DNA from: Oceanobacillus caeni
GTDB lineage: Bacteria > Bacillota > Bacilli > Bacillales > Amphibacillaceae
NCBI RefSeq assembly: GCF_019037185.1
Contig: NZ_JAHHXM010000001.1
Location: forward strand, 124,001 to 188,000
DNA length: 64,000 nucleotides
Direction: 5' to 3'
The notes beneath the pieces are model-generated. The model ran no database searches and had not been told where the DNA came from. It worked only from the letters and a program-made list of their open reading frames with translations. The position numbers and the translations under genes were made by a program. Within the stretch, counting starts at the first letter, position 1; each line of letters begins with the position of its first letter. Below are positions 13,996-59,935 of this stretch, piece after piece.

Positions 13996-14145
13996 ATAAA
14001 GAAGACTTCCATCAGTAGGGGTTTTCCTTCATCCCCCACTGATGCACTTATCGGACCTTTACAGGCAGTTGATCTACCACCAAGCTTCTTTGTTTCCCCA
14101 GAAGCTTGAGGTGGGTCTTATTTCCCGTTTAGGTGGGGTAAAATA
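13996..14145 (-). repeat. Dispersed structured repeat, copy A
   Basis: This roughly 150-bp sequence recurs at 39507, 47109, 56488 and 59802 (near full length) and 53124 (deleted). On the plus strand it begins AAAGAAGACTTCCATCAGT and ends near AGGTGGGGTAAAA. It can fold: a first arm CATCAGT/ACTGATG with G/C runs, and a second arm with CCACC/GGTGG and AAGCTTCT/AGAAGCTT. In this copy the outermost arm of the second stem (GGCAGT with ACTGCC elsewhere) is lost. It is oriented so that the minus-strand transcript from operator S3 would carry it in the leader. Confidence 0.85.
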
Positions 14146-14160
14146 CTAAACGTACAGTAT
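14143..14160. promoter_or_regulatory. Operator candidate S3 (ATACT-N8-AGTAT palindrome)
   Basis: ATACTAAACGTACAGTAT has perfect half-sites. It touches the right end of repeat copy A and precedes the oxidoreductase-ligase genes (13960 down to 11268). It shares the five-base arms and eight-base spacing with S1, S4 and S5. Confidence 0.7.
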
Positions 14161-14221
14161 GTTTCTAGGTTCATTATATAACTTGTTTTCGTAATATTCA
14201 ATATATTTTTACAGTATTTCT

Positions 14222-15760
14222 TTAAAAACCTGTTGGCCAATTTGCTAACTTCCTCTCACTAAGAGACCCATTTTTAGCACATGCATATTCTAACGTCTGA
14301 ATTAAAAACTTTCTTGTGTCTCTTGGATCAATAACATCATCAATTAAATATTTACCAGCAGCTTTATATGGTGAACTGTCAAATCCCCAGTTTTTCAGTA
14401 ACTCTAAGCGTTCTTCCTTTTTGTTCTCGGTATTTTGTAATTGACGACCATATACTACATTAATGCCAACCTCTGGTCCCGTAAAATTAATTTCGGCTGT
14501 CGGCCAGGCTACAACAAAATCGGCTCCCATCGTCGGACCGCACATATTGCCATATGCTGCACCAATACTTTTTCGAATAATAATAGAAATCTTTGGTACA
14601 GTAGACTGTGCTAGTGCTTGATTCCACATCATAATTTTTGTAGGCATTTTAAGTTTTTCCGCGTCACTAGATACTCGAAAACCAGGAATATCATGTAAAA
14701 AAATTAACGGAATATTATATGAATCACATAGACAAATAAAATCTGTTGCTTTTTCACATTCATTGGGACCAGCTGCGCCTGCAAACTGCATAGGTTGATT
14801 TGCTACAATACCGACAACTTTACCATTCATTCTCGCTAAGACAGTAATTAATGCTTTTCCAAATGTTGGCTTCATTTCAAAGTAATCTTCATTATCTACA
14901 ATCAACTTAATCACTTTTTTCATGTCATAGGCACGTTTACGATTTGTTGTAACGATATCGACTACTTTGTCTAAACTTCGATACGGTTCATCATTTGTCT
15001 CTTTGCATCTTGGTTCTTTACCAGCATGTTGTGGCATATAGTCTAGGAATTTTTTTATACTTTCAATTGAATCCTCTTCATTTTCCGAAAACTGATCCAC
15101 TTGTCCCGTATACTTCGCATGAACATCCCATCCACCAAGTTCTTCGTTTGTTACTTTTTCTCCTGTTGCCACCTCTAACATCCTTGGTCCAGCAACAGCC
15201 ATTGTCGTTCCCTTTGCCTGTGTTACAAAATCAGAGGATACCGCTAGCCATGTTGGACCACCAAAACTATCTCCCAAGATGGATGTTACCATAGGAACTT
15301 CTCGCTGATGTCGTAACATTACTTGTGGAAATAGCATTTGACTAATACCGTCAGAACCCATTCCATCGGGCATGCGGAGTCCTCCACCTTCCATTAAATT
15401 TATTAAAGGGAATCCTCGTTTTAAAGCGTATTCATGCAGTGCCTTCGTCTTTCGGAAATATACAATTCCTTCTGTTCCAGCAAATACGGTTTTATCTGCA
15501 GCTTGCACAACTACCGGGCGGCCATTAACCTTTGCGAGACCAGTTACAATACCATCACCAGCACTTTTATGTTCCATGCCCTCTTGATCAGAATGTGCTA
15601 GTAAACCTAACTCTAAAAAAGAGCCTGGGTCCACCAATTTATTAATTCGTTCCCTTGCTGTAAAAAAGCCAAGCTTATGCTGTTGTTTTATTTTCTCTTT
15701 TCCACCTCCTAACTTTGCAATTTCTTTTCTATTTAATAACTCTTTAATTTCTTTTTCCAT
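14222..15760 (-). CDS. Acyl-CoA carboxylase carboxyltransferase (beta) subunit
   Basis: This protein of about 512 residues has the full length of propionyl-/methylcrotonyl-type carboxyltransferases with both crotonase-like halves: RERINKLVDPGSFLELG at the start, SDGISQMLFPQ and LGDSFGGPTWLAV in the first half, and FLHDIPGFRV, KSIGAAYGNMCGP and WPTAEINFTGPEVGINVVYG in the second. It transfers carboxyl from biotin to an acyl-CoA. The start MEKEIKEL follows AAAGGAG by seven bases. It lies at the 3' end of the ligase/permease cluster. A biotinyl carrier protein is encoded at 20888, but no biotin carboxylase gene is in the window. Confidence 0.9.
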   Translation of the reverse strand: MEKEIKELLNRKEIAKLGGGKEKIKQQHKLGFFTARERINKLVDPGSFLELGLLAHSDQEGMEHKSAGDGIVTGLAKVNGRPVVVQAADKTVFAGTEGIVYFRKTKALHEYALKRGFPLINLMEGGGLRMPDGMGSDGISQMLFPQVMLRHQREVPMVTSILGDSFGGPTWLAVSSDFVTQAKGTTMAVAGPRMLEVATGEKVTNEELGGWDVHAKYTGQVDQFSENEEDSIESIKKFLDYMPQHAGKEPRCKETNDEPYRSLDKVVDIVTTNRKRAYDMKKVIKLIVDNEDYFEMKPTFGKALITVLARMNGKVVGIVANQPMQFAGAAGPNECEKATDFICLCDSYNIPLIFLHDIPGFRVSSDAEKLKMPTKIMMWNQALAQSTVPKISIIIRKSIGAAYGNMCGPTMGADFVVAWPTAEINFTGPEVGINVVYGRQLQNTENKKEERLELLKNWGFDSSPYKAAGKYLIDDVIDPRDTRKFLIQTLEYACAKNGSLSERKLANWPTGF

Positions 15761-15815
15761 ATATGATCTCCTTTTAGAAATTCTAGTAAGATTCAATGCA
15801 TCTTGGAAGGCACCT

Positions 15816-17801
15816 TCACGAATTATTACTCCTTAATTTATCTGATTGAGCAAATCTGACAAAATAATTAATTGAATCTGGATTACTCATGGCATCAACA
15901 CTTGCAGCTTTTTCCACAGAAATACCTAATAAAATTTTACGAACCGGAATCTCCATTTTCTTACCAGTTAATGTTCTTGGTACTTCTTTAATAGCAAATA
16001 TATCATCTGGTATGTGGCGTGGAGACACTTCTTCTTTTATTTTCATATTTATTTTTTTCTTCAACTTGTCTGTTAAATCAACTTCTCCGGATAATACCAC
16101 AAATAATGGCATATAAGCTTGATGGAGATATCCACTTAAGTCCACAACAAGACTGTCGAGCACTTCAGGTACAGATTCGACTGCATTATAAATCTCACTT
16201 GAACCACTTCTTACTCCCATTCGATTAATCGTTGCATCCGACCTTCCATAAATGACAGCACTACCACGTTCCGTTATTTTTAATAGGTCTCCATGTCTCC
16301 ATACTCCAGGAAAATAATCGAAATAGCTTTCCTTATATCTTTTATCATCTGGATCATTCCAAAAGTAAAGCGGCATGGAAGGGAATGGCTTTGTAATGAC
16401 CATTTCACCTATTTCACCTGTGACCGGCTTTCCGTTGTCATCATAGGAATAAACAGAAACCCCCAAGCATCTAGAAGGAATTTCACCAGCATGAATTGGT
16501 GATAGGGAGTTTCCAGCCACTATTCCTGCAGCTATATCTGTACCACCGCTAATAGGGGCTATCCTCACCCTCTTTTTTACATAATCATATACCCACTTAA
16601 ATCCCTCTGGTGATAAAGGAGCTCCTGTATATGCAAAGGTATTCAGATTAGACAAGTCGTATGTTTCACCCGGTTTTATACCTACTTTCATACAATTTAG
16701 GATATGGCTGGGGCTAGTTCCAAAGATTGTCATTTTTGTTTTTTCAGCTAATCTAAAGAGAACGCCGTGATCTGGATACGAAGGACTTCCATCATATAAA
16801 ACAACCGATGCGCCTGTAACCATAGCTCCTACCACACTATTCCACATCACCCAGCCGGTAGTTGTATACCAAAAGAATCGATCATTCGAAGTTATGTTTG
16901 ATTGCAGATTTACGGATAAAAGAGAAAGTAATATTCCCCCATGCCCTTGAACAATTGGCTTTGGTAAACCAGTTGTACCGGACGAGTATAAAATCCATAG
17001 TGGGTGATCAAAGGGTACTCTCTCAAACGTTAGCTTGGCGGGAAGTCCGATTATTTCCTTCCAAAAAGTTCTTTGTTCTATACCACTCATATCAGGATCT
17101 TGATTTAAGTATGGTACTACGACTACTTTTTCAACACTAGGCAAATTTTCAACTAATTTTGAAACAGTTTCAATTCTGTTAAAAGGTTTTCCATTATACC
17201 TGTATCCATCAACAGTAAATAATACTTTTGGTTCAATTTGTTTGAAACGACCAAGAGTACTTCCAACACCAAATTCCGGAGCACAGCTGGACCAAATGGC
17301 TCCAATGCTTACAGTAGCAAGGAACGCTATAATGGTTTCAGGTATATTCGGCATATATGCAACAACACGGTCACCTTTTTTAACACCAATGGATTTTAAA
17401 TAAGCTGCAATCGAAGCAGTCTTATCCAATAATTCAGTCCAACTTAATTCTGATAAAGGTTGATTCTCAGATGTGTAGAAAATGGCTGTTTTATCCTTTT
17501 TGACATTTCGTAATATATGCTCTGCATAGTTAAGAGTTGATCCAGAAAACCAATCGGCCCCTGGCATTATCTCTTTCTTTAAAACGGATTCATAAGGAGT
17601 ATATGATTTCACTTGATAGTAATCCCAAATTGTCTCCCAGAACTCCTCCATATTATCAACAGACCATTTCCATAAATCTTCATATGTTTTCAGAGTAATA
17701 TTTTTATTCATCCTCAACCATTTCTTATAATCCGTAATAGCTGCCCCTTCTATTTCCTTATTACTAGGACTCCAGAGTAATTCTCCTTCTTTAACAGTCA
17801 T
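15816..17801 (-). CDS. Acetoacetate-CoA ligase (acetoacetyl-CoA synthetase)
   Basis: This 661-residue ANL enzyme has the extended N-terminus of acetyl/acetoacetyl-CoA synthetases (ITDYKKWL, YTPYESVL, GADWFSGSTLNYAEHIL), the phosphate loop YSSGTTGLPKPIVQGHGG, ISGGTDIAAGIVAGN, the hinge GRSDATINRMGVRSGSSEIY and the catalytic lysine in PRTLTGKKMEIPVRK. It converts acetoacetate, ATP and CoA to acetoacetyl-CoA. It lies 43 bp downstream of a permease of the GntP type, and together they would let the cell use acetoacetate or 3-hydroxybutyrate, or recover acetoacetate released by leucine-type degradation. Confidence 0.93.
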   Translation of the reverse strand: MTVKEGELLWSPSNKEIEGAAITDYKKWLRMNKNITLKTYEDLWKWSVDNMEEFWETIWDYYQVKSYTPYESVLKKEIMPGADWFSGSTLNYAEHILRNVKKDKTAIFYTSENQPLSELSWTELLDKTASIAAYLKSIGVKKGDRVVAYMPNIPETIIAFLATVSIGAIWSSCAPEFGVGSTLGRFKQIEPKVLFTVDGYRYNGKPFNRIETVSKLVENLPSVEKVVVVPYLNQDPDMSGIEQRTFWKEIIGLPAKLTFERVPFDHPLWILYSSGTTGLPKPIVQGHGGILLSLLSVNLQSNITSNDRFFWYTTTGWVMWNSVVGAMVTGASVVLYDGSPSYPDHGVLFRLAEKTKMTIFGTSPSHILNCMKVGIKPGETYDLSNLNTFAYTGAPLSPEGFKWVYDYVKKRVRIAPISGGTDIAAGIVAGNSLSPIHAGEIPSRCLGVSVYSYDDNGKPVTGEIGEMVITKPFPSMPLYFWNDPDDKRYKESYFDYFPGVWRHGDLLKITERGSAVIYGRSDATINRMGVRSGSSEIYNAVESVPEVLDSLVVDLSGYLHQAYMPLFVVLSGEVDLTDKLKKKINMKIKEEVSPRHIPDDIFAIKEVPRTLTGKKMEIPVRKILLGISVEKAASVDAMSNPDSINYFVRFAQSDKLRSNNS

Positions 17802-17844
17802 ATTGCCTTCTCCCCTTTAAAAAGTTATTAATTTTCGGAATAAA

Positions 17845-19143
17845 TTACCCATAGATGATGAATGCCGTTATTATTGCAAATATTAAGGCAATTAATGGTG
17901 CAATACAACATATCCAGAATACAGGTTTGTAACCTTCCTTGTGTGTCAATCCAGCGACTGTTAATCCAGTAACAACTGCACCATTATGAGGTAGGGAATC
18001 TAAGCCTCCTGAACTAATGGTAGCAATTCTGTGCAAGGCTTCTGGATCAACAAGAGTTGCATAGTGTCCACCTAGCGTATCCATGGCTATTCCTAGTCCA
18101 CCTGAAGCTGATCCTGTAATACCAACAATGATATTTATTGCAATTGCAAATGAGATTAGTGGGTGACCAGGAATATTAAAAATAGCATCTTGTAACATTT
18201 GGAAACCTACTGTAGCTGAAACAACACTTCCAAAACCCACTACCGCACTAGTATTTAAAATTGGTGAAGCAACATTCATAGCACCAGTATTAAATGTTTT
18301 CATTGGCCGATCAATATATTTATAGAGTAGAATTCCAGCAGCAATCACTGCGATAGCCAATGATATTTCTATACTTAATTTAATGATATTTAGAAAGAGT
18401 AATAAGATAACCGATGGAATAATACTTAAAATAAAAGATGGATATTTTTGCTTGTTGTCAAATTTAAAAGTGTCATCCCCTTTTGTATCTTCATAACCCA
18501 AGTTCTTCATCTGATACCTCTTATCTTCTCGGCTTAACCACCAAAGGCCAAATGGTATAATAGTCAATGTTGCTACTATTCCGACAATTGGTGCTGCAGT
18601 TGCAGTAGTACCTAAATAATTAATAGGAATTAAATTTTGAATTTGCGGTGTTCCGGGAAGCATCGTCATCGTGAACGTACCAGAACCTAAGAATGCCGAA
18701 CCAATAAATATTGGCCACGGAATATTTAGCTCTTTAAAAATGGGTCTTGCAATTGGCATGACTGCAAATATAACAACGAATAAACTAACCCCACCATAGG
18801 TTAATGCTCCGGTGATAGTCATAATTGCTATGATAACAGATAATCTACTTTTCTTACCTGTAACTTTTAGGATTCCTCTAGCTATACTAGTTGCAGCTCC
18901 ACTATCTTCCATCACCTTACCAAAAAGGGCACCAAATAAGAATATTAAAAAGTAATTACCTACAAAACCAATAAACCCTTCTATATAATGGTTTGTCAAA
19001 GCCGCATCAATCGTAATCCCACTCGTTATTGCGACCAGTGCTGATACGGCTAGCGATATAATCAATAAATTAAATCCTTTTAATGCAAGAAATATTAGTA
19101 GTGATAATGCAACAATCGTCCCTACAACACTAGCAATTTCCAT
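17845..19143 (-). CDS. GntP-family permease (probable hydroxyacid/3-hydroxybutyrate transporter)
   Basis: This 432-residue membrane protein has around twelve hydrophobic helices and the GntP-family sequences YGGVSLFVVIFAVMPIARP, LGSGTFTMTMLPGTPQIQN and GGLDSLPHNGAVVTGLTVAGL. The family contains gluconate and D-beta-hydroxybutyrate permeases; the direct neighbour acetoacetyl-CoA synthetase favours a ketone body or hydroxybutyrate as substrate, which is inference. It lies between that gene (43 bp) and an acyl-CoA ligase (29 bp) in one operon. Confidence 0.85.
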   Translation of the reverse strand: MEIASVVGTIVALSLLIFLALKGFNLLIISLAVSALVAITSGITIDAALTNHYIEGFIGFVGNYFLIFLFGALFGKVMEDSGAATSIARGILKVTGKKSRLSVIIAIMTITGALTYGGVSLFVVIFAVMPIARPIFKELNIPWPIFIGSAFLGSGTFTMTMLPGTPQIQNLIPINYLGTTATAAPIVGIVATLTIIPFGLWWLSREDKRYQMKNLGYEDTKGDDTFKFDNKQKYPSFILSIIPSVILLLFLNIIKLSIEISLAIAVIAAGILLYKYIDRPMKTFNTGAMNVASPILNTSAVVGFGSVVSATVGFQMLQDAIFNIPGHPLISFAIAINIIVGITGSASGGLGIAMDTLGGHYATLVDPEALHRIATISSGGLDSLPHNGAVVTGLTVAGLTHKEGYKPVFWICCIAPLIALIFAIITAFIIYG

Positions 19144-19172
19144 AATTATCCTCCCAATTTAATTACATAGGT

Positions 19173-20831
19173 TTACCCTTCCTTTTTCAAAAGTCTCCTT
19201 AATACTTTACCTGAGCTTGTGGCAGGTAAACTATCAATAAATTCTATAGCTCTTGGATACTTGTAAGCAGCCATTTTTTCTTTCGCCCATTCTATCATTT
19301 CATTCTCGCTTATTTTTCCTTTATAAGATGGTTTTAGCACGATAAATGCTTTAACGCTTTCGCCACGTTTTGGATCGGGAACACCAATACAAGCCACCTG
19401 AGAAATAGCTTCATGATCACTCATTAAAGCTTCAACATCTTCTGGAAATACACTGAAACCAGAGGATTTAATCATTTCTTTTACACGACCTAGAAAATAT
19501 AAATAACCATCTTCATCAATACATCCAATGTCACCAGTGTATACCCAGCCATCACGTAATGTTTCTGCTGTTTCTTCAGGCCTATTTAAATATCCTTTAA
19601 ATACACCTGGATTTTTTACCGCAATTTCTCCTTGTTTCCCTGGTGGAAGATCTTCTCCTGTTGCAAAATCAATAATTCGAAATTCTGTTTCGTATGTAGC
19701 GATTCCACATGATCCAAATTTGATCTTTTCGATAGGCATAAAGGTATCGCATGTATGCGTTTCACTTAATCCATACGATGCTTCAAGTAAAACACAACCT
19801 TTTGTTAACTTCTTCCAGGCGTTTGCTAATTTTTCGTCTACCTTCATACCAAAACTAGTTGCAAAATTTAATTCTAAGGACGAAAGATCTCTGTTTTCGA
19901 TACCCGGGTGATTTAAAATAGCAGCATTCATTGTAGCAACCGAATAAAATTTATTAATCTTGTATTTCTCTATTGCTTGAATAGTAGCTTCCGTATCAAA
20001 ACGAGTAAAGAGGACACAGAATAAGGCTTGGTATACAGGAATATTAACACCCATTACCATACCCGCAATATGGCATAGCGGAGCATTGGCTAGGGTTCTA
20101 TCCCCTTCCCCCAATCTATAGCTATGAACAGTAGCTGCAGTTTTAAATAAAGCATTTCCATAGGTTAACATGGCAGCTTTTGGACGACCTGTCGTTCCTG
20201 AGGTAAATACCAATAACCCAACATCATTCCATATGTCAATTTCCTCGGTCTTCGATAATGGATCGGTGGATTGAATTATGTTTTTCATGTCATAGGTATT
20301 ATTTATAATCCTTTTTTCGATTGTTAATTCTTCAGGTAGCGGAAGTGTTAATTGCTCTGGAAGTAAATCTATATAATTAGTAGTTACTATAAATTCAAGG
20401 GATAGAGTTTCACTTTTTATGGATTCGATATGTTGATAAAGTTCTTGGGAAGAGATAATTGCTTTAATTTCAGCTTCAGATATAAAATAAATTAATTCAG
20501 ACGGCTTATACATTGGGTTCAGCGGAACAACAATAGCACCTAGCATTTGAATAGCATAGTGTCCAATTAAATATTGTGGACAGTTTTGCATATAAAGCGC
20601 AATCCGATCCCCTTTGCCGATACCTTTACTCTGTAAAAAGCTTGCAAATTTTTGAGTATAATCACTTAACTGCTTCCAAGTGATTGTATTTCCATAATAC
20701 AAATATCCGGGTTGATTTGGAAAATCTACCGCGTTTTGCATTAAATATTCATGGAGGGGTTTTTCACCTAAACGATAATTTAATGTTTTTGGAAGTTCTT
20801 TTGGCCAACTTTTTATTAATACGTCCTTCAC
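19173..20831 (-). CDS. Acyl-CoA ligase (AMP-forming)
   Basis: This 552-residue ANL enzyme has the phosphate loop FTSGTTGRPKAAMLTY, ASYGLSETHTCDTF, YTGDIGCIDEDGYLYFLGRVKEMIKSSG and the catalytic lysine in PATSSGKVLRRLLKK. Its closest relative in the window is the ligase at 26047-27693, with which it shares the N-terminal WPKELPKTL / WPLRLPKNL opening. The start is a GTG after AGGAGG. It is followed 46 bp later by the biotinyl carrier protein... reading in the transcript direction its own downstream neighbour is the GntP permease. The acid it activates is unknown. Confidence 0.9.
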   Translation of the reverse strand: MKDVLIKSWPKELPKTLNYRLGEKPLHEYLMQNAVDFPNQPGYLYYGNTITWKQLSDYTQKFASFLQSKGIGKGDRIALYMQNCPQYLIGHYAIQMLGAIVVPLNPMYKPSELIYFISEAEIKAIISSQELYQHIESIKSETLSLEFIVTTNYIDLLPEQLTLPLPEELTIEKRIINNTYDMKNIIQSTDPLSKTEEIDIWNDVGLLVFTSGTTGRPKAAMLTYGNALFKTAATVHSYRLGEGDRTLANAPLCHIAGMVMGVNIPVYQALFCVLFTRFDTEATIQAIEKYKINKFYSVATMNAAILNHPGIENRDLSSLELNFATSFGMKVDEKLANAWKKLTKGCVLLEASYGLSETHTCDTFMPIEKIKFGSCGIATYETEFRIIDFATGEDLPPGKQGEIAVKNPGVFKGYLNRPEETAETLRDGWVYTGDIGCIDEDGYLYFLGRVKEMIKSSGFSVFPEDVEALMSDHEAISQVACIGVPDPKRGESVKAFIVLKPSYKGKISENEMIEWAKEKMAAYKYPRAIEFIDSLPATSSGKVLRRLLKKEG

Positions 20832-20887
20832 TTTTCCTCCTCCTTTTTATTTCTAATATTCAAAGTTTCCTATTTAATCTCAACAGC

Positions 20888-33064: not shown

Positions 33065-33300
33065 GTGACACCCTCTCGGCATTAAAATACCGAGCTTCCA
33101 AAGTGGAAACCTCTTAAAAGAGGCGGAAGCAGTTCACTAGGATGGGAGCTTGTCTCCCGACAATCCATTGTTGTTCCATTTCTGGCCCACCTTCTAACAT
33201 GACTGCCATACCCCATGCCACTTGGGGCTCCTAGGTTGGATTGTACCACCTAGGCACTTGAACTATAATACGAACCTATCTCACGACTGTTCCGTACTAC
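33065..33300 (-). ncRNA. Probable TnpB guide RNA (reRNA/omegaRNA) region and right end
   Basis: The 230 bases downstream of tnpB contain several inverted repeats on the minus strand: CCTAGGT/ACCTAGG, CCCCAAGTGGCATGGGG, GGGAG/CTCCC, CCTCTTTTAAGAGG and CGGTATTTTAATGCCG, the last just before AGGGTGTCAC. A structured, untranslated 3' region ending at the element's right end is the known layout of the omegaRNA used by TnpB nucleases. If the end is at 33065, the guide would start CATATGCGAAAGAATTGG. The exact end is inferred from the hairpin and from where sensible protein sequence of the neighbour begins. Confidence 0.65.
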
Positions 33301-34415
33301 CCCGCCAAGCTTGTGCTACGTGCAATATTATTTGAAGCATTCAAATCAGCATGACAAGTATAGCCACATTTTACGCAACGGAATTTATCTCCGTAGCGGT
33401 TATTCTTTTCTGCATGACCGCAACATCCGCAAAATTGGCTTGTTTGATAAGGGTTAATATCTACAACTGGAATATTGTGTTTCGCAGCTTTTTCTTTGAT
33501 GAACTGTTTTAATTGATAGAAAGACCACGAGTGAATGGTTTTATCTGCTCTCTTCATGCTACGACATGTTTTTCGAATGTCGTCTAATGCTTCCATTTTT
33601 ATGATTGGATTATCAAATTGTAGAGCGAAATCTACTATATCTTTAGCTAATTTTCGGTTATAATCTTTCATCCATTCTCTTTCTTTTTTACCTATACGTT
33701 TGATGACGCGCAGCGCCTTTGCTTTACCTAACGAACGTCGTAGGGAACAAAAATGACGTCGCATATAACCGACTTCCTTACCAGAAAAAAATTGTCTTTT
33801 ACCACTAAAGGGTTCAGAAACGACCGCAATATGTCCCAACCCTAGATCCACACCAATAGATGTAGACTTTTGTCGTTTCATGTTTTCAAAGATGCGTTTA
33901 TGTTTCTTTTCAAAGTCTAGTTCTGAACTTATTTGTATTGGAATTGCCACATACCAATGTTTTCCTTTACGCAACAATTCCATGGTTCCACGAAACCCTT
34001 TCTTCTTTTGCGTCAGAAATGGAAAAAACGTTTGTACATCTTTTGTTTCTACTACCGGTAGTGCCTTTTTCCCCATATTAGAGGTAAATGCAATGTACCA
34101 TCTTCCATTTTTCTCTATGGAATTCCAGTTTTGATTATTTATTTTCACACCAAGTGACTTTTTGAAAATAGGAATCGTTGTTGCTCGCCCTTTCCTATAA
34201 TCAGAAACAGCCTTTTTTGCGCGACGAATAGCCTCGTTTTTTATAGAGGATTTGAGGTTGAATGGTACGTCTTTTGAAGAAATTTTTTCTCCATTTTGAA
34301 TGCGTTCCACACAATCATTTACGCAATTAGAAAACTCCTTTTGCTCATAAATGAATTGTTTATGCTTTTTCTTTGTTGGCTTTTTGAGTTTAACTAATAT
34401 AGTTTTCGTAGCCAT
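33297..34415 (-). CDS. tnpB: RNA-guided endonuclease TnpB
   Basis: This protein of about 372 residues has all TnpB landmarks: RuvC-I aspartate 190 in STSIGVDLGLGHIAVVS, RuvC-II glutamate 275 in IIKMEALDDIRK, a zinc ribbon with C329-x2-C332 and C347-x2-C350 (FCGCCGHAEKN, RCVKCGYTC), and RuvC-III aspartate 357 in CHADLNASNNIA. The N-terminus TKTILVKLKKPTKKKHKQF is the usual start of the wedge domain. All catalytic residues are present, so the nuclease may be active. The start is set by GGGAGGTG five bases before ATG; the longer frame from 34448 has no site. Confidence 0.93.
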   Translation of the reverse strand: MATKTILVKLKKPTKKKHKQFIYEQKEFSNCVNDCVERIQNGEKISSKDVPFNLKSSIKNEAIRRAKKAVSDYRKGRATTIPIFKKSLGVKINNQNWNSIEKNGRWYIAFTSNMGKKALPVVETKDVQTFFPFLTQKKKGFRGTMELLRKGKHWYVAIPIQISSELDFEKKHKRIFENMKRQKSTSIGVDLGLGHIAVVSEPFSGKRQFFSGKEVGYMRRHFCSLRRSLGKAKALRVIKRIGKKEREWMKDYNRKLAKDIVDFALQFDNPIIKMEALDDIRKTCRSMKRADKTIHSWSFYQLKQFIKEKAAKHNIPVVDINPYQTSQFCGCCGHAEKNNRYGDKFRCVKCGYTCHADLNASNNIARSTSLAG

Positions 34416-34491
34416 TTTTTCACCTCCCATATGGGGATATTTTACCAAACATATGTTCTATCATCAACCTAAAAGGCCTTAGATATTAAAG

Positions 34492-39414: not shown

Positions 39415-39454
39415 AACTAAGGCATAGCCACCCTTTATGGCCAATGCCTTAGTT
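39415..39454. repeat. Stem-loop upstream of the oxoprolinase operon
   Basis: AACTAAGGCAT and ATGCCTTAGTT form an 11-base stem with AGCCA/TGGCC inside. The 3' flank GTTGCACTTA is shared with the hairpin at 63880-63917. It lies between repeat copy B and the start of the NRAMP-like gene, so it would be in the leader of that transcript if transcription begins upstream of it. Confidence 0.6.
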
Positions 39455-39506
39455 GCACTTATACTAGATTACAATGTTTATCCATTCTTATCTACCGAAA
39501 AAAGCT

Positions 39507-39665
39507 TTAAAGAAGGATTCCATCAGTAGGGATTTTCCTCCATCCCCCACTGATGGTTAGTCGCACTTATCGTGCCTTTACAAACAGTTGATCTCCCGCT
39601 TATTTTTTTGTTTCCCCAGAAGCTTAAGGTGGGAATCTTACTGCCCGTTAAGGTGGGATAAATAC
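39507..39665 (-). repeat. Dispersed structured repeat, copy B
   Basis: Near full-length copy, beginning TTTAAAGAAGGATTCCATCAG and ending AAGGTGGGATAAA on the plus strand. The first stem CATCAGT/ACTGATG is intact. The second stem is weakened by changes (AACAGTTGATCTCCCGCTT, AAGGTGGGAATC). It lies about 185 bp upstream of the start of the NRAMP-like gene. Confidence 0.85.
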
Positions 39666-47067: not shown

Positions 47068-47108
47068 ACTTAGGCATCCGCCCAGCCTAAAGCAGATGGC
47101 AAGTTTTT
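47068..47108 (+). repeat. Imperfect hairpin of the GGCATTC family with T tract
   Basis: ACTTAGGCATC and GATGGCAAGT form an imperfect stem followed by TTTTTTT on the plus strand. Its layout matches the hairpins at 63880 and 34510. It separates pgcA from repeat copy C. Confidence 0.45.
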
Positions 47109-47269
47109 TTAAGAGGACTTCCATCAATGGGGGTTTTCTTTCATCCCCACTGATGGTTAGTCGTACTAATCGGACCTATACGGGCAATTGATTTCCCTCC
47201 TACCACTTTCTTTGCTACCCCAGAAGCTTGAGGTGAGAGTCTTACTGCCCGTTTAGGTGGGATAAAATG
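47109..47269 (-). repeat. Dispersed structured repeat, copy C
   Basis: Near full-length copy with TTAAGAGGACTTCCATCAATG at its left and AGGTGGGATAAAATG at its right. The outer second stem is complete here (CGGGCA with TGCCCG) and the inner arm is altered (CCTCCTACC, GAGGTGAGAG). It stands about 110 bp before the pgcA start. Confidence 0.85.
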
Positions 47270-51316: not shown

Positions 51317-51382
51317 CGTTTCGGTCTCCTTACTAAAATGCGAACAGTATGTGGATCCTCTAATACTGTTCGCTTAATAGAA

Positions 51383-52927
51383 CTATTGGTTCGTAATTTT
51401 CAAATCTTCTAAATTAAACTTCTGAATAGGGTACATTTTTAACCCTTCTAAATCGCTTCGCATTGCAATCGTACGATCAGGGTCCATAATATATACACTT
51501 GCCGCATCTTCTGTTAATAGGCGTTGGGCTTCTTTATAATACCCTGCCATCTCTTCCATGTCTGTCGCAGCAATAGCCTTTTTAATTAATTCATCATAAT
51601 TTTTATTATCGTAATTAACAAAGTTAGAACGGTAATCACTTACATATCTTACAAGTATCTCATACGGATCTAATTTTCCTGTAAATGAAACAACTGTTGC
51701 TTCATATTGTGCATTTTGATAAACCGTTTCTAACCAGGAACTAAATTCGATCGGTTTAATATTTACTTCAATACCAATTTGACTCAATTGTTCCACAATC
51801 ACTTGTGCTGTATCAACGTGAAATGAATAATCAGATGGTACCGTTAATTCTAAAGGGAAGCCATCCGGAACCCCGGCTTCTTGTAATAATGATTTTGCTT
51901 CCTCGATATTTGGAGCATACACATCTTCTAATCCCGCTTCATAGTAAAAATCCATCGCTGGGCTGAAATTTGACCCTAGTTTCGTACCCTTTCCATCTGC
52001 CACTGTTTCAATAATTATATCTTTATTAATTGCTAGGTTGATAGCTTGACGGACACGGACATCATTTAATGGTTCCACATCATGATTTAATGCCATTAAT
52101 TGAACCATATTTTGTGGACCAGATACCGTATTTACAGAATCACCTAGTTGAAGCAATCCTTGAGGGGTGATTCCAGGAATGATGTCAATTTCACCTGACT
52201 TCATGGCTAGAACGGCAGCCTCTGGATCTGGCATCACAATAAATTGAACTTCACTTATTTCAGGTATATTTTGTTGATCATAGTATTCTTCGTTCCTTAC
52301 CAATGTCAATTTCTGTCCAACTTGATATTCCTTAAACTTAAATGGACCTGCACCTATAGGGTTCGTGCTTTGTTCTTCATAATCTGCAGGTAAAATAGGA
52401 CGAATATTCGCAGCTAAAAATGCAGAGTTTTTTTCTTTTAACGTAATTACCACTTCATAGTCAGACGGAGCTTCTATTTTTTCTATCATTTCAAATTGGG
52501 ACGAAAGAGGTTCTTCTCCATTTAATCCACTTAATCTTTCATAAGAATAGATAACGTCCTCAGCTGTTAAGTCAGAACCATTATGGAATGTTACTCCTTC
52601 TTTTAATGTAAACGTATAGGTTAAGCCATCATCTGATATCTCATAAGACTCAGCTATGGCTGGAATTAGTTTGCCAGTTTCATCTGTATCTAGCAATCCG
52701 TCAAATACGTTGTCCATCATAGACTGCGTGTCTGTTGCAGCCGATATGTAAGGGTCTAAATTATCTACTTCTGTACTCATGGCAATTTTGATTACTTCAT
52801 CCTGATTCAATGTTTCCGATTTATTACCTTTTGCAGTTCCATTGGATTCTTCCGTATTAGAGCCTGAGCATGCTACTAATAAAAGAATTGCAATGGTTAT
52901 GTAAGCTAATTTACTAACTAGTTTCAT
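51383..52927 (-). CDS. Peptide/nickel-type ABC transporter substrate-binding lipoprotein
   Basis: This 514-residue protein has a lipoprotein signal ending ILLLVAC with the lipid cysteine at residue 20, followed by a Ser/Asn-rich linker and a family 5 binding fold: YTFTLKEGVTFHNGSDLTAEDVIYSYERL, NPIGAGPFKFKEYQVGQKL, DVRVRQAINLAINKD. It is the first gene of its operon. Family 5 proteins bind peptides, nickel chelates or others; the adjacent genes for a nickel cofactor make nickel a reasonable guess, but no nickel-specific residue is evident. Confidence 0.9.
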   Translation of the reverse strand: MKLVSKLAYITIAILLLVACSGSNTEESNGTAKGNKSETLNQDEVIKIAMSTEVDNLDPYISAATDTQSMMDNVFDGLLDTDETGKLIPAIAESYEISDDGLTYTFTLKEGVTFHNGSDLTAEDVIYSYERLSGLNGEEPLSSQFEMIEKIEAPSDYEVVITLKEKNSAFLAANIRPILPADYEEQSTNPIGAGPFKFKEYQVGQKLTLVRNEEYYDQQNIPEISEVQFIVMPDPEAAVLAMKSGEIDIIPGITPQGLLQLGDSVNTVSGPQNMVQLMALNHDVEPLNDVRVRQAINLAINKDIIIETVADGKGTKLGSNFSPAMDFYYEAGLEDVYAPNIEEAKSLLQEAGVPDGFPLELTVPSDYSFHVDTAQVIVEQLSQIGIEVNIKPIEFSSWLETVYQNAQYEATVVSFTGKLDPYEILVRYVSDYRSNFVNYDNKNYDELIKKAIAATDMEEMAGYYKEAQRLLTEDAASVYIMDPDRTIAMRSDLEGLKMYPIQKFNLEDLKITNQ

Positions 52928-53123
52928 TTTAAACTATCCCCCAAAAGTAATATCATATAAAAAAACTTTCCCCTTGTTTTTATGAACTTTTTAGCTCTAC
53001 ATCTCACCCTTCTCTTATTTGAAAATAACAAGATAGTCATGGTTATTATTTCGCCAAAGAATGGCAAAAATCCTTTTTTATCAGAAATATTTTCGCACTT
53101 ATTGGTAAACTTTATAATGATTA

Positions 53124-53163
53124 TATAAAGAAGACTTCCGTTAGTGGGGGTTTTACTGCCCAT
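53124..53163 (-). repeat. Dispersed structured repeat, deleted copy F
   Basis: The left end ATATAAAGAAGACTTCCGTTA with GTGGGGGTTT is joined directly to TACTGCCC of the right part, so about 110 bp of the middle is absent. It lies about 200 bp before the binding-protein start and beside the larC2 terminator. Confidence 0.75.
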
Positions 53164-53165
53164 AA

Positions 53166-53208
53166 AGAAAAAAGCTAGAGAAAATTGCGTATCGCAATCT
53201 CTAGCTTT
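53166..53208 (-). terminator. Rho-independent terminator of the lar operon
   Basis: AAAGCTAGAG and CTCTAGCTTT form a stem with an inner ATTGCG/CGCAAT arm; on the minus strand TTTTTT follows. Confidence 0.88.
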
Positions 53209-53248
53209 ATTCAGAAAAGGCCACGTCCGGCTCCAGCGCCTTTGTTCT

Positions 53249-53719
53249 TTATAGAAGTTTCCATATTTCTTCATACACCTTTTTTAACGGTATGTAATGT
53301 GTCTTAGCTATCGTTTTACATTCTTCATATTCCGGGGAACTTTGAAATACTTTGCCGTTTGATATTCCTTGTTTTACAGTGACTGGGCCCCATTTGGTAT
53401 CCACTTTTATAAATCTCCTTTGCATGCGGTGAACAGTTATAGGATAATAACGTATTCCTAACGTTGTCGTTTCTTGCAGCAAAATTTCCTTCATTTTTTC
53501 TAATTTATCCATAGAGCAAAGAAGTTGAAGTAATGCACCTGGACGGTTTTTTTTCATATAGATGGGCGTATAAAAAACATCGTTAGCACCCGCTGTAAAT
53601 AATAACTCCATCACGTAACCAAGCAATTCCCCTGAAGTGTCATCAAGGTTTACTTCCATTTTCACCATATTGTTATCGATATGCTCTTCGTTTGGAGGGT
53701 GTTTTATTTCCACTTTCAC
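53249..53719 (-). CDS. larC2: Nickel-pincer cofactor protein LarC, C-terminal part (LarC2)
   Basis: This 156-residue protein matches the C-terminal domain of LarC: MVKMEVNLDDTSGELLGYVMELLFTAGANDVFYTPIYMKKNRP, LLQETTTLGIRYYPI, and PEYEECKTIAKTHYIPLKKVYEE. LarC inserts nickel into the pyridinium dithiocarboxylate cofactor of lactate racemase. In most bacteria the domain is part of one gene with the N-terminal half, and in Lactobacillus the two are joined by a frameshift; here larB separates them. It starts from GTG and lies 11 bp after larB. Confidence 0.9.
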   Translation of the reverse strand: MKVEIKHPPNEEHIDNNMVKMEVNLDDTSGELLGYVMELLFTAGANDVFYTPIYMKKNRPGALLQLLCSMDKLEKMKEILLQETTTLGIRYYPITVHRMQRRFIKVDTKWGPVTVKQGISNGKVFQSSPEYEECKTIAKTHYIPLKKVYEEIWKLL

Positions 53720-53730
53720 TCATTCCCTTC

Positions 53731-54474: not shown

Positions 54475-54507
54475 ATTTCCTTCTTCCCTCCCCGAAAGTA
54501 TATTCTT

Positions 54508-55419
54508 TCATTCTTCACCTATTACAACGCGTAATACGTTCGGATGTTGAGGGAAAGTTTTCGTTCCCGCTCCATAGCCAACTTTTTTCACCTTCATCGA
54601 AGGAAAAGTACAAAATTCCTTAGCCAACACTGCGGCAATAGCAGCACCTGTTGGAGTAGTTAGCTCTCCCCTGACTTCACTATTTGCGATAGGAACATCA
54701 CGTAAAATTTCTAAAGTTGCTGGTGCGGGTACCGGATAAATTCCATGGTCGATATGAATTTTCCCAGAACCAGTTGGGATTGGGGAAGCCTTGATTTCTT
54801 CAACTTCAAGTTGTTCCAATAATATGGCAGTACCTACAATATCAATGATAGAATCCACTGCACCTACTTCATGAAAATGAACAGTCTCTAGTGGCATTCC
54901 ATGAATTTTCCCTTCCGCTTCACCAATTTTTTTAAAAATTTCTAAGGACATATGTTTAACCTTTTCCGACAAATTCGACTCTGAAATCATACGTACAATA
55001 TCACGGTAAGCTCGATGATGGTGATGATGGTCTCCATGACTATGGTTGTGAGAATGTGCATGGTCATGTACATGATGGTCGTGATGGTGTTCATGGTCTT
55101 TACTGTGATCATCGTGCTCATGATGGTTATTGGTGTGATGATTATGACCCTCACCATGCTCATGAGAATGGTCGTGATTATGCGTATGTTCGTGTGAGTG
55201 GTCATGATGATGTTCTTCATTTTTTAACACGACATCAAATTTAGTTCCTGTAATTCCGTTTTTCACTACCTTGTCCATTTTCAATTCATACTCATCCGCA
55301 AAGTTCAATTTCTTAAGTTCTGACTCCAGGTGAGAAAAATCTCCTCCAGCATCAAGTAGTGCACCTATTGTCATATCTCCGCTCATACCTGAAAAACAAT
55401 CAAAATATAATATTTTCAT
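54508..55419 (-). CDS. larC1: Nickel-pincer cofactor protein LarC, N-terminal part (LarC1) with His-rich insert
   Basis: This 303-residue protein starts KILYFDCFSGMSGDMTIGALLDAG and continues HFHEVGAVDSIIDIVGTA, SPIPTGSGKIHIDHGIYPVPAPATLEIL and GELTTPTGAAIAAVLA, the N-terminal part of LarC. Residues 70-135 are an insert of more than thirty histidines with Asp, Glu, Asn and Ser, which should bind nickel. It ends at NVLRVVIGEE, where full-length LarC proteins go on into the C-terminal domain found here as a separate gene at 53249. It is 33 bp upstream of larB. Confidence 0.93.
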   Translation of the reverse strand: MKILYFDCFSGMSGDMTIGALLDAGGDFSHLESELKKLNFADEYELKMDKVVKNGITGTKFDVVLKNEEHHHDHSHEHTHNHDHSHEHGEGHNHHTNNHHEHDDHSKDHEHHHDHHVHDHAHSHNHSHGDHHHHHRAYRDIVRMISESNLSEKVKHMSLEIFKKIGEAEGKIHGMPLETVHFHEVGAVDSIIDIVGTAILLEQLEVEEIKASPIPTGSGKIHIDHGIYPVPAPATLEILRDVPIANSEVRGELTTPTGAAIAAVLAKEFCTFPSMKVKKVGYGAGTKTFPQHPNVLRVVIGEE

Positions 55420-55529
55420 TCTAAAGCCCCTCGTATTTATAAATTTCCTTTTTTAAAAGCATATCCATCTTTACCTTCTTACTAACCGTTTAGATAGGGT
55501 AAATCATTAAAAACTTTTCCAATCCATCT

Positions 55530-55571
55530 AAAAAAGCAGTTTTTAATCTTATATCGAGATTAAAAACTGCT
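55530..55571 (-). terminator. Rho-independent terminator after larE
   Basis: AGCAGTTTTTAATCT and AGATTAAAAACTGCT form a perfect 15-base stem; the minus strand goes on with TTTTTT. It separates larE from larC1, so the latter probably has its own promoter in 55420-55529. Confidence 0.88.
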
Positions 55572-55597
55572 ACCATAGATCCCTAAATCAACACGAT

Positions 55598-56428
55598 TTA
55601 AGCATTAGCTGCAAGTTGCTCGTTAGCAGCTTCAGACAATACTTCATTCATACTACCAGTACGATACCCTCTTAGGTCACAAGAAACATAATCAAATCCT
55701 AATGATACTAGTTTATGTTGAATTTGCTCACGCTTCTCAAGTAAGGAAATGATTTTATCTGCTGCCACTTCAATACGTGCAACATTGTCATGATAGCGAA
55801 CACGAACTTCATCAAAACCGATGCCTTTCAGATAAAGCTCTGCTTCATTTACTTGATTAACGATTTTTTTATTTAATGTTGTTCCATAAGGGAATCTTGA
55901 TGCAAGACTACAAGATGCTAATTTATTCCAAACTGGTAGATTTAATTCTTTTGCTAGTTCACGTACGTCCGTTTTATACATATTTACTTCTTGGAGTACA
56001 CTACGAATGCCCTCTTCTGTTCTTGCTTTTAACCCAGGACGGAAATCTTCTTCATCATCCATAATCATTCCATCTAATACATATGGAAAATTCATTTCTT
56101 TCGCAAGTTCATTTAGATGAGTGTACAACAATTTTTTACTGTAGTACCAGCTATCTGGATTATTTACAACGATTCGTGAATCCTCTAATTCTTTTATTTC
56201 TGTCTTATGAACACGGACACCCATGTCTTCCGCAAATTCAACAGCAGCATCAAACTCAGAATCACGGAATAGCTCGGAATTCACAACAACAGCTAATACA
56301 TTGTCATTTCCAAGTTCTTGTTGAGCTCGCTTTAAAACAACTGCACTATCAACACCACCAGAAAACGCAACCATTACACGGCCCATGTTCTTTAATATTT
56401 CACCTAAACGACGGTTCTTTTCTAACAT
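55598..56428 (-). CDS. larE: ATP-dependent sacrificial sulfur transferase LarE
   Basis: This protein of about 276 residues has the PP-loop AFSGGVDSAVVLKRA (residues 21-35), VLDGMIMDDEEDFRPGLKA and SCSLASRFPYGT, whose cysteine 173 or so is the expected sulfur donor. It activates the biscarboxylate with ATP and gives up its own cysteine sulfur to make the thiocarboxylate. The start MLEKNRRL has GGAG eight bases upstream; an earlier GTG is possible. Repeat copy D lies about 60 bp upstream of this start. Confidence 0.93.
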   Translation of the reverse strand: MLEKNRRLGEILKNMGRVMVAFSGGVDSAVVLKRAQQELGNDNVLAVVVNSELFRDSEFDAAVEFAEDMGVRVHKTEIKELEDSRIVVNNPDSWYYSKKLLYTHLNELAKEMNFPYVLDGMIMDDEEDFRPGLKARTEEGIRSVLQEVNMYKTDVRELAKELNLPVWNKLASCSLASRFPYGTTLNKKIVNQVNEAELYLKGIGFDEVRVRYHDNVARIEVAADKIISLLEKREQIQHKLVSLGFDYVSCDLRGYRTGSMNEVLSEAANEQLAANA

Positions 56429-56487
56429 CTTAGTCACTCCATTCAGCACATTTTCCCTCTTAGGAAGTTTAATCTTAGTAAGTTTTT

Positions 56488-56643
56488 ATCTAGATGACTT
56501 CCATCAATGGGAGTTTTCCTCCATCCCCACTGATGCCTAGTCGCACTTATCGGACCTTTACAGGCTGTTGATCTCCCAACTACCTTCTTTGTTTCCCGAG
56601 AAGATTAAGGTGAGATTCTACTGCCCGTTTAGGTGGGATAAAA
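56488..56643 (-). repeat. Dispersed structured repeat, copy D
   Basis: Near full-length copy: TCTAGATGACTTCCATCAATGG at the left and TTTAGGTGGGATAAAATAA at the right. GATTAAGG replaces GCTTGAGG of the other copies. It is upstream of larE in the same orientation as the others. Confidence 0.85.
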
Positions 56644-56821
56644 TAACACTTTATTTATTTTCCAAATCTTAAAATCTTATAACTTTAAAATACTTTCTTT
56701 TTGTTTAGTTGTCAAACCAAATGCCGGGCGCTTTCCGAATTTGGTTTTAACAAGTTATTAACATATTCATATATATTCTTATCCCTTCCTTATGTATTAC
56801 CAAATTAATTTAAAATAACAA

Positions 56822-56853
56822 CGACCACCAAATCTGCATTAATTTGATGGTCG
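56822..56853 (-). terminator. Hairpin after the UPF0182 gene
   Basis: CGACCACCAAAT and ATTTGATGGTCG form a 12-base stem with one mismatch; TTGTTATTTT follows on the minus strand. Confidence 0.65.
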
Positions 56854-56863
56854 AAAAGTTATA

Positions 56864-59641
56864 TTATTTCAATCTTTGATCTAGCTCACTCATTATTTCT
56901 CCGGCTTTTTGCCAGTCTCCTTCAGATAGTGCTTTTTGGTATTGATTGAAAAGATCAGACACTTCACCTAGTACTTCATCCGCATTTAGAATTGGATCCG
57001 TATTTGGCTGGTCTTGTTGATCTTCCTCTGTATTGCCCTCATCTGTTACCTCACCGTCAGCATCTGGAACTTCTTCTGGTTTAATTCCCTTTTCTACACG
57101 ATCCACAATCTTCTGCAACGCTTCATCAAACGTAGCTTCCATTGCAATATGATCACCATATGCAACAACGACTTGTTTCACTTCAGGAAGAGAAGTCTCG
57201 TTAGAAGATTCAATGTAGATAGGTTCGACATAAAGAACCGTATCTTCTATCGGTAACGCGAATAAGTTTCCGCGAATGACTGAAGATCCACCTTGTGACC
57301 ATAAGTTTAATTCCTGAGAAATGACACTATCTTGGTTTATCCGGTTTTCAATTTGCTGTGGTCCATAAACGTTTTCTTGTTTAGGGAACCTATAAACAAA
57401 TTTTTCACCGTAGTGTTCCCCATCATTCCGAACCCCCATCCAAGCAATCATATTTTGCCTGTTTCTTGGAGCATATGGCACCATAAGGATGAACTCTTCT
57501 TCATCATATTCAGGAAGTTTCATAGTTGTATAATAAGGTTCCATTTCGACATCTTCATTATAGTATTTTTCGGTTGGAAACTGCCAATAATCTTCTCTAT
57601 TATAGAAAAGTTCAAGATTTGTCATATGATAGGTTCCATACATCGCGGATTCAATCTTAAATAGTTGCTCCGGATAACGGAAATGACTGCGTACATCATC
57701 AGGAATTTCCGTAGTGAACAAGTTCGGGAACATATTCTGGTATGTCCGTACGAGCGGTTCATCAGGATTAGTAATATAAAAGTTTGTTTCTCCTGTATAA
57801 GCATCGACTACAACTTTAACAGGGTTTTTAATATAATTGTTTCTTCCGTCAAAGTTTTCCGCATATGGGTATCCTTCCCCAATTAGATACGCATCTATCA
57901 TCCATGCAAGACTTCCATCATCACGTACGAAAACATAAGGATCATCATCATACTCAAAGAATGGAGCAATACGCTCTACACGTTCCATAATGTTACGTGT
58001 TTGCAGTAATTTACTATCTTTATTGATTTGTCCAGACACAAGAATACGAATGGATCCTTCATCAATGGCAAATAATAAACGATTTAGACCCGTTAATGGA
58101 ATTCCCGCTTCTTCTTCATAGCGGGTGGATACATTCTCTTCACCAGCTGGATAGTCAAATTCATTTACCTCTGTATCGACAATGACACTCCGATAATCTT
58201 CTTCCCCAAAATAAATTTGCGGTTTTTCAATATCGATCGCACCTTGTGGTGGTAAGTTTCTAACTAAATATTCTGGTTGACCTTGAGAAGTTACTTTATT
58301 CACTTGACTCATTGCAATCCCATATCCATGTGTATAACGTAGGTTTTGGTTAACCCATGTTTGTGCCTGCTCCGGCAAATCTTCTGTATTCAATTCCCTA
58401 GCGCCGATAAATACTTGCTGATACTTCCCATCAATCTTATAACGATCAATATCGATATCATTAAATTGATAATACGTACGGAATGTTTGTAATTGATTAT
58501 AAACATCCAAAAGTGGTCTAGCATCGTTAATACGTACATTATCTATTGTTAGTTGATTTCGCTTAATTAAATCTTCGCTTAATGAATCAACATTACCAGG
58601 GTGTTCCTTTTCTTCCATTCCTTCTAAGCCATATGCCGCCCTAGTGTAATTCAAATTATGTTCTAAGTACGGAGCCTCTCTATTAAACTCGTTTGGAGAA
58701 ACGATAAATTGTTGAACGACAAATGATGCTCCTTGCCCCAAAATAATAATTCCAAAATAGATAGCTATTGGCATAATAAGCTTATGGATTCTTCCTTTAC
58801 GTAAACTAAGAATAATCCAAACAGCAGCAATAATTGAAAATGCCGCAAGAACGTAAGATACTGGAATATTAACCATACGGTCTGTAAAACTTAGCCCGTG
58901 CACGACACTATGTTGAAATATATTAACACGATTAGTCAATAGCGTACTAAACGGTTCTAAAACGTGAGTTACTGCCAACAACACCCCAACAATTAATACC
59001 GTTAGAGATAAATGTGACTGGGCAGATTTATTCATACGATAAATATGAAAGACTGAATAAGCGGCAACCTCTACTATTAAAACAAATATACTTAAACTTA
59101 ATAGTAGATTCACTACAAATTTCAAGAATGGTAAGACATACATATAAAATGAAATATCCCGATTAAAAAATGGATCTGTTTCACCAAATGGTACATAGTT
59201 CATGATTTTGAGCGCTGGTTCCCAACCAAGCCCCTGCACCGTTGTACTTCCAATTAAGCCAACAAATAAAGTTCCTGCTAAAATAATTAAGTTTAATGTT
59301 TTCCCTCTTTGTAAAAATGGTGGAAGCTGGTGAATAGAAAATTGCGAAAGATAAGTTCGTTTTATCCAAAATAGGGTAATATACGTAATAATTGCAAATA
59401 ATACAAACCCTATAGCTCCAAGCATAACCTTAATACTTAATATGGTGGTAAACACAGAAGAAAAGTCTAGCGAATCCATCCATATGTATTCGGTAACCCA
59501 GCTTAAACCAAGTCCAACGATAATGAATAGCACAACTAAAAATCCGATAAAAATACCAGAGCGACCACCTAGTTTTTTCATCTTTTTTAACTGCTCTACA
59601 TTTGAACCATTTGGACCATCTGTTCTTCCCCTAAAAGCCAT
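56864..59641 (-). CDS. UPF0182-family large membrane protein
   Basis: This 925-residue protein has seven hydrophobic helices in the first 300 residues and a long extracytoplasmic part, the UPF0182 plan. Family sequences include EYIWMDSLDFSSVFTTIL, DPFFNRDISFYMYVLPFL, RYTHGYGIAMSQVNKVTSQGQPEYLVRNLPP, PQIYFGEEDYRSVIVDTEVNEFDYP and MWMQYP-like regions. The tail is acidic (EEVPDADGEVTDEGNTEEDQQ) and ends in a short helix. No function is established. AGGAGG lies before the ATG. Repeat copy E lies about 160 bp upstream. Confidence 0.93.
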   Translation of the reverse strand: MAFRGRTDGPNGSNVEQLKKMKKLGGRSGIFIGFLVVLFIIVGLGLSWVTEYIWMDSLDFSSVFTTILSIKVMLGAIGFVLFAIITYITLFWIKRTYLSQFSIHQLPPFLQRGKTLNLIILAGTLFVGLIGSTTVQGLGWEPALKIMNYVPFGETDPFFNRDISFYMYVLPFLKFVVNLLLSLSIFVLIVEVAAYSVFHIYRMNKSAQSHLSLTVLIVGVLLAVTHVLEPFSTLLTNRVNIFQHSVVHGLSFTDRMVNIPVSYVLAAFSIIAAVWIILSLRKGRIHKLIMPIAIYFGIIILGQGASFVVQQFIVSPNEFNREAPYLEHNLNYTRAAYGLEGMEEKEHPGNVDSLSEDLIKRNQLTIDNVRINDARPLLDVYNQLQTFRTYYQFNDIDIDRYKIDGKYQQVFIGARELNTEDLPEQAQTWVNQNLRYTHGYGIAMSQVNKVTSQGQPEYLVRNLPPQGAIDIEKPQIYFGEEDYRSVIVDTEVNEFDYPAGEENVSTRYEEEAGIPLTGLNRLLFAIDEGSIRILVSGQINKDSKLLQTRNIMERVERIAPFFEYDDDPYVFVRDDGSLAWMIDAYLIGEGYPYAENFDGRNNYIKNPVKVVVDAYTGETNFYITNPDEPLVRTYQNMFPNLFTTEIPDDVRSHFRYPEQLFKIESAMYGTYHMTNLELFYNREDYWQFPTEKYYNEDVEMEPYYTTMKLPEYDEEEFILMVPYAPRNRQNMIAWMGVRNDGEHYGEKFVYRFPKQENVYGPQQIENRINQDSVISQELNLWSQGGSSVIRGNLFALPIEDTVLYVEPIYIESSNETSLPEVKQVVVAYGDHIAMEATFDEALQKIVDRVEKGIKPEEVPDADGEVTDEGNTEEDQQDQPNTDPILNADEVLGEVSDLFNQYQKALSEGDWQKAGEIMSELDQRLK

Positions 59642-59801
59642 CTCATACCTCCTATTTGCTGCACTTATACAGACGGGAAAGATTTTTATACTTTCCTACC
59701 TGCAAAAAAATGATAACTACTTATATCGTAACAGATATACCGTATATTGTCGCTTAATTTTTGGAAGATTTTCGAAGTTGTTTTTCGACAGAAAGGAGGT
59801 A

Positions 59802-59935
59802 TAAAGAAGACTTCCATTAGCGGGGGCTCTCCTTCATCCCCACTGATGGTTAGGTGCGCTTATCGGATCTTTACGAGCAGTTGATCTCCCACCTAACTTC
59901 TTTGTTTCCCCAGAAGCTTGAGGTGGGACAAAACT
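59802..59935 (-). repeat. Dispersed structured repeat, copy E (right end missing)
   Basis: The copy begins ATAAAGAAGACTTCCATTAG and stops at GAAGCTTGAGGTGGGACAAA, so the last 28 bp or so of the others are not present, and with them the outer second stem. Its inner stem CCCACCTAACTTCT/AGAAGCTTGAGGTGGG is the best preserved of all. Confidence 0.82.

Follow-up and report, generated by a model that had tools for sequence, protein, structure and literature searches.

The palindrome-associated transposable elements (PATEs) of Haloquadratum are related to IS605 (PMC3119063), and IS608 and ISDra2, insertion sequences (ISs) of the IS200/IS605 type, use the lagging-strand template (PMC6006769). Among Bacilli, published descriptions confine the bcr1 repeat to the Bacillus cereus group (PMC6542083, PMC2267715, PMC3446304), and the mobility of bcr repeats is described only as possibly "site-specific recombination-like" (PMC6542083). 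Here we analysed a family of ~155-base repeats in a 64,000-nucleotide stretch of the Oceanobacillus caeni genome (assembly GCF_019037185.1, contig NZ_JAHHXM010000001.1, positions 124,001 to 188,000, forward strand; hereafter the window). These repeats are very probably a non-autonomous, transposase-less mobile element of the IS200/IS605 type, similar to PATEs, that most likely moves as single-stranded DNA during replication. A literature search by title and start of abstract, which left subscription papers mostly uncovered, found no description of the family outside the B. cereus group and none that presents it as an IS200/IS605-type element. It is apparently a new, widespread transposase-less IS200/IS605-type element of Bacilli.

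We built a covariance model (R1) from 31 long copies of the O. caeni genome, and it placed the family far above chance there, with at least 150 matches at E ≤ 0.01, among them decayed and partial copies. Matches were also found in 88 of 299 genomes of the order, belonging to 50 of 116 genera (E ≤ 0.001), and in 34 of 299 genomes of the class (E ≤ 0.0001), a genome set partly common with the order survey. Within the genus, 24 of 28 genomes matched at E ≤ 1e-5, with per-genome counts from 0 to at least 107, and the sister genome G320 itself carries 40 at that threshold. Carriers among the matches listed include Niallia, Cytobacillus, Neobacillus, Metabacillus, Peribacillus and Terrilactibacillus, as well as Rummeliibacillus, Gottfriedia, Priestia, Ectobacillus and Heyndrickxia. 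No match was found in the phage records searched; plasmid records gave few, and none of the B. cereus-group plasmids matched.

Orientation relative to replication is the first line of evidence for single-strand movement, which would produce such a bias. A sequence-only reading of the window had noted that all copies share one orientation, which is correct (all lie on the plus strand), and had proposed that a strand bias of single-strand transposition might explain it. We compared orientation with the position of dnaA in four genomes, placing the terminus half a genome away and using part of the matches listed for each (33 of 36 in G244, 24 of 54 in G171, 19 of 20 in G067 and 53 of 81 in G080). 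Two of these genomes are near-finished, G244 in one contig and G171 in two; in both, orientation reverses at dnaA, and 31 of 33 listed copies fit in G244 and 23 of 24 in G171. The flip lies between 2,659,826 and 2,745,144 in G244 (dnaA at 2,702,486) and between 3,689,138 and 3,871,965 in G171 (dnaA at 3,750,635). The bias for the lagging-strand template, a feature expected of PATE-like elements, is thus clear in G244 and G171 and weaker in G067 and G080. In the O. caeni genome, among the best 118 of 150 matches, 88 of the 100 copies on contigs carrying at least two lie on their contig's majority strand.

That orientation follows the fork and not the strand of neighbouring genes is well supported. 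We examined 40 of the 57 copies in G244 and G171, namely the 20 best-scoring per genome, with the terminus set after the flips were known; 39 of the 40 run with the fork, and among these are all 4 copies flanked by two lagging-strand genes and all 13 flanked by one gene of each strand. Because copies run with the fork, the strand that begins with TTTAT is the lagging-strand template; it corresponds to the minus strand of the window and is the proposed transposing strand.

Read on this strand, the element consists of TTTAT, a left double hairpin of ~96 nt, a right hairpin of ~50 nt and a second TTTAT, and a well-kept copy (C55:11482) folds into these two adjacent hairpins. In the left end, an outer stem that covaries encloses an inner one, and immediately 5' of the latter lies a conserved, unpaired TAAGAC. 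To compare lineages we used an alignment (A3) of 52 copies, one top-scoring copy per locus from structure-model matches, a choice biased towards paired copies but not towards covariation itself. Two-sided changes occurred at 22 of 37 pairs, giving 111 two-sided cells versus 22.6 in shuffled alignments (0 of 500) and at most 17 in slid controls, and an unaided RNAalifold run recovered 21 of 33 pairs. Hairpins near both ends are therefore conserved across active lineages, as in PATE-like elements. The covariation anticipated by the sequence-only reading is accordingly present between lineages but not within the O. caeni genome, where the 31 copies had 7 two-sided cells versus 8.8 in shuffles, 88.5% of cells paired versus 88.6%, and similar divergence in stems (9.6%) and loops (10.9%; p=0.15), while RNAalifold returned a weak, different fold of 10 pairs. 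Since covariation exists between lineages but not above shuffles within a genome, the fold would be kept for mobility rather than for a role in place: it appears to be maintained in the copies that give rise to new ones and to decay once a copy is resident.

These patterns bear on whether the repeats are instead mobile leader RNAs, or other regulatory RNAs, acting on the expression of adjacent genes, which we consider very unlikely. The best-kept copy does fold strongly (z of -9.1 as RNA and -8.3 as DNA), copies are mostly intergenic, and the bcr repeats of B. cereus are partly transcribed in untranslated regions (PMC3446304), all of which would suit an RNA. However, stems decay like loops, orientation tracks the fork and not the gene, and 7 of the 39 copies with two flanking genes in G244 and G171 sit between convergent genes, where a leader would precede no gene. 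The numbers of G-U and A-C mismatches are similar (32 versus 39 in A3, 89 versus 108 in alignment A1), so neither strand is preferred as RNA, and folded DNA fits better than a one-strand RNA. The placement of all six window copies upstream of genes, which the sequence-only reading had stressed, is real and uninformative: 53 of 56 called open reading frames (ORFs) lie on the minus strand, 6580 of 7316 intergenic bases (90%) are upstream of some gene, and six of six upstream copies would be expected with a probability of ~0.53. It thus matches chance expectation because the window's genes are almost all on one strand. The distances to gene starts range from ~17 to 197 bp, wider than the 60-200 bp first given.

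The orphan guide-like RNA that had been suggested as part of the element likewise finds no support: G-U is not preferred over A-C on either strand, and no Rfam model matched at its gathering score in the window, which also speaks against a leader RNA. Matches of two copies to Rfam at E ≤ 1 were all far below gathering, mostly to microRNA and snoRNA models, with one Lactobacillus small RNA model placed on flanking bases.

The ends of the element argue against conventional double-strand transposition. By eye count, 21 of the 31 long O. caeni copies have an exact ATAAA (TTTAT on the proposed transposing strand) at the left end, and 21 have it at the right. The two ends are not inverted repeats of each other (CCCGC... 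versus ...GTTTCAC), and from sequence the second TTTAT can be read either as part of the element or as a target-site duplication. A classical miniature inverted-repeat transposable element moved by a DDE transposase, with TTTAT as its 5-bp target duplication, would account for the motif at both ends; but terminal inverted repeats are absent, the five bases keep to a single motif instead of varying, and double-strand insertion does not predict the flip at dnaA, so that we regard this origin as highly improbable. A fixed short motif at the insertion point without terminal inverted repeats is instead what PATE-like elements have. Where copies stand head to tail in G067 and G244, neighbouring units share 4-5 bases, and single-strand transposition would leave just such a single shared TTTAT in tandem arrays.

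Mobility is further supported by comparison with G320, which is 88-89% identical to the O. caeni contig C11 in the main blocks. Of 17 copy sites on C11, 12 could be aligned to G320, 4 had no collinear match and 1 had no sequence. The empty sites foreseen by the sequence-only reading were clear at 8 of the 12 alignable positions; 2 others lack the copy and hold other sequence in the gap, and 2 are unclear.

A further link is provided by ISs that carry tnpA and tnpB in some of the same genomes. In the O. caeni genome, G171 and G074, their left end reads TTAAC, outer stem, GAAGT, an inner CTCCC...GGGAG stem, ATGAA and the returning outer stem, which is the architecture of the left half of our element. 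We built a second model (R2) of that left half from alignment A4, from which the odd copies L086 and L089, and later L094, were omitted. R2 scored 21.5, 21.0, 19.5, 17.4 (three times) and 14.6 bits on IS left ends, including that of a more distant IS in G184 (L254), while the best control match in 70 kb reached 12.2 bits. The top match of all, at L252 (36.3 bits), can be read as a decayed element copy close to a tnpA. This resemblance also counts against site-specific recombination of a folded single strand, as in attC sites acted on by a tyrosine recombinase. Such recombination would explain the fixed 5-base motif, the head-to-tail tandems and the folded single strands, and would agree with what has been loosely suggested for the bcr repeats of B. 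cereus; we nevertheless think it improbable, if slightly less so than a leader RNA or a DDE-moved element. The IS200/IS605-like interpretation that the sequence-only reading had offered is thus well supported by the flip at dnaA, the independence from gene strand, covariation between lineages and empty sites, and is backed by a moderate left-end likeness to tnpA-bearing ISs.

Several observations weigh against an IS200/IS605-type element. The left-end likeness is moderate, with E values of 0.012 to 0.5; a total of 20 tnpA loci were searched and 7 showed it, six of these 7 belonging to one IS subfamily, and the same search gave a 14.8-bit match away from a left end. The tnpA-tnpB ISs use TTAAC and not TTTAT, and their right end is unlike the right hairpin of the element; given these differences in target and right end, we treat them as relatives in architecture rather than as a proven partner. 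The cognate TnpA was not identified: R1 had no match at E ≤ 0.001 in seven loci around tnpA or tnpB genes of the O. caeni genome (L009-L011, L013-L015 and L046; L012 fell outside the search), and tblastn with that genome's TnpA (L049 onward, L009-L015 and L046) matched only loci fetched for tnpA, a search that may miss distant TnpAs. Across 299 genomes, association between the element and Y1 transposase genes is absent or weak (69 of 88 genomes with the element versus 153 of 211 others, p=0.31); they are present in 27 of 30 genomes with 9 or 10 of 10 scored matches (p=0.046), and no PF01797 match was obtained in G055, G150 or G215, each of which has many copies. The fork rule is followed less well by G067 (14 of 19 listed copies) and G080 (37 of 53, or 50 of 74 with 21 initially omitted rows). 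Lastly, the junctions at empty sites are not base-exact because the flanks have diverged, and at C11:6096 the G320 gap may hold a diverged copy.

Two further leads were followed and set aside. The window itself encodes a full-length TnpB-like protein (33297-34448, minus strand; PF07282) with no tnpA match on its contig, and its locus (L013) had no R1 match and has flanks that by eye are unlike the element. Unpaired half-elements were screened in search of an autonomous version, and the screen showed modular length variants, tandems and halves of separate copies; its long-gap candidates were not read singly for genes.

We suggest the following route of transposition. Both ends would fold as single-stranded DNA on the lagging-strand template, where a Y1 HUH transposase (TnpA) supplied in trans may bind the hairpins and cut 3' of TTTAT at both ends. 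A single-stranded circle would then be released and would insert 3' of a new TTTAT in the lagging-strand template, with GTAAG as a possible guide, since it could pair with TTTAT if wobbles are included. Under this mechanism, hairpins would covary between active lineages and decay in resident copies.

The repeat family lies where the sequence-only reading placed it, with small corrections to the ends (Table 1). Window copies have common ends near the junction of ATAAA with GAAGACTTCC and that of GGTGGG with ATAAA, and the two arms exist as first described, except that the nested arm is longer, the terminal GATAAA pairing with an internal TTATC. The short form, which lacks the last GGTGGG...TTTA module, accounts for 7 clear and 2 unclear cases among the first 40 O. 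caeni copies, and its sequence is consistent with a deletion between two AGGTGGG repeats. The internally deleted copy overlaps a called 116-aa ORF (52924-53274) that may be spurious.

Table 1. Copies of the repeat in the window, with their state at the corresponding site of the sister genome G320.
Feature	Position	Strand	Remarks
Long-form copy, 147 nt	13996..14142	+	~17 bp from start of minus-strand gene 12980-13978; absent at aligned G320 site
Long-form copy, 156 nt	39507..39662	+	Absent in G320; G320 gap holds other repeat sequence
Long-form copy, 159 nt	47108..47266	+	Absent in G320
Internally deleted copy	~53125..53166	+	Both ends retained, most of both hairpins lost; absent in G320; ends read by eye
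Long-form copy, 155 nt	56488..56642	+	Absent in G320; G320 gap holds other sequence
Short-form copy	59801..59932	+	Without terminal GGTGGG...TTTA module; absent in G320; ends read by eye

Near the deleted copy, GGCGCTGGAGCCGGACGT occurs at 53223-53240 (minus strand), which we take to be a recurrent intergenic motif of Bacillales. A second hairpin-rich repeat family of ~130 bp is present in the O. caeni genome (for example L026:2830-2960, equivalent to C11:5925-6055), with at least 43 matches in both orientations on several contigs. It has a TTAGT(T/C)GCACTTAT stretch in common with the element, and fragments of it lie in the window near 39420-39475 and 59660-59710, the latter also present in sister genomes.

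Variation in length was seen in other genomes. Variants at L090, L176, L190 and several JAGKQJ loci (e.g. L104, L136 and L177) have halves that lie ~250 nt apart or are separated by gaps close to 145, 200 and 254 nt, a pattern that looks like the addition of ~55-nt modules. G080 contains a shorter class of R1 matches, ~116 nt long and of mixed orientation, possibly a different, related element; the mixed orientation of copies in this genome includes blocks of reversal, for which rearrangement is a guess. A lone 64-base match to the right-hairpin half in plasmid CP079755.1 of Klebsiella grimontii (221561-221624), an unexpected host, could reflect chance, transfer or contamination alike.

Among known systems, the element differs from the REP/REPIN sequences associated with RAYT transposases, which are also high-copy, intergenic hairpins with proposed Y1-type mobilisation, but which are 20-65 nt long against ~155 nt here (PMC3733652, PMC6006769). 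In place of their short hairpin with a 5' GTAG (GT[AG]G) tag at its foot, the element has other conserved motifs. With IS608 and ISDra2 it has in common hairpin ends, a short fixed target and lagging-strand orientation (PMC6006769, PMC7290912), as well as a left end resembling in architecture that of the tnpA-tnpB ISs; it differs in lacking tnpA and tnpB, in having TTTAT at both ends and in its larger left end, the described IS608 and ISDra2 hairpins being 20-25 nt (PMC6006769, PMC7290912).

The likeness to bcr1, which we compared by description and not by sequence, extends to a size of ~150 bp, flanking TTTAT, intergenic position, dozens of copies per genome, structure and mobile-element features (PMC6542083, PMC2267715, PMC3446304), whereas our family occurs in many other genera. 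Tentatively, and with slightly less confidence than an even chance would carry, we propose that the element and the TTTAT-flanked bcr repeats form one superfamily of transposase-less single-strand transposons across Bacilli, which borrow a resident IS200/IS605 or RAYT-type TnpA and insert at replication forks; in the two near-finished genomes, orientation alone places the origin within the ~85 or 183 kb that hold dnaA. This offers a testable mechanism for the abundant TTTAT-flanked repeats of Bacilli. If true, single-strand transposases have carried short, gene-free hairpin elements as hitch-hikers into dozens of genera, and the copies record in their orientation the direction of replication.

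The closest described kind is the PATEs of Haloquadratum, which are likewise short, lack a transposase and terminal inverted repeats, carry IS605-type palindromes near their ends and show strain-specific insertions (PMC3119063). Our element differs from them in being bacterial, in forming one family over many genera of Bacilli, in having TTTAT at both ends and in its larger, double left hairpin.

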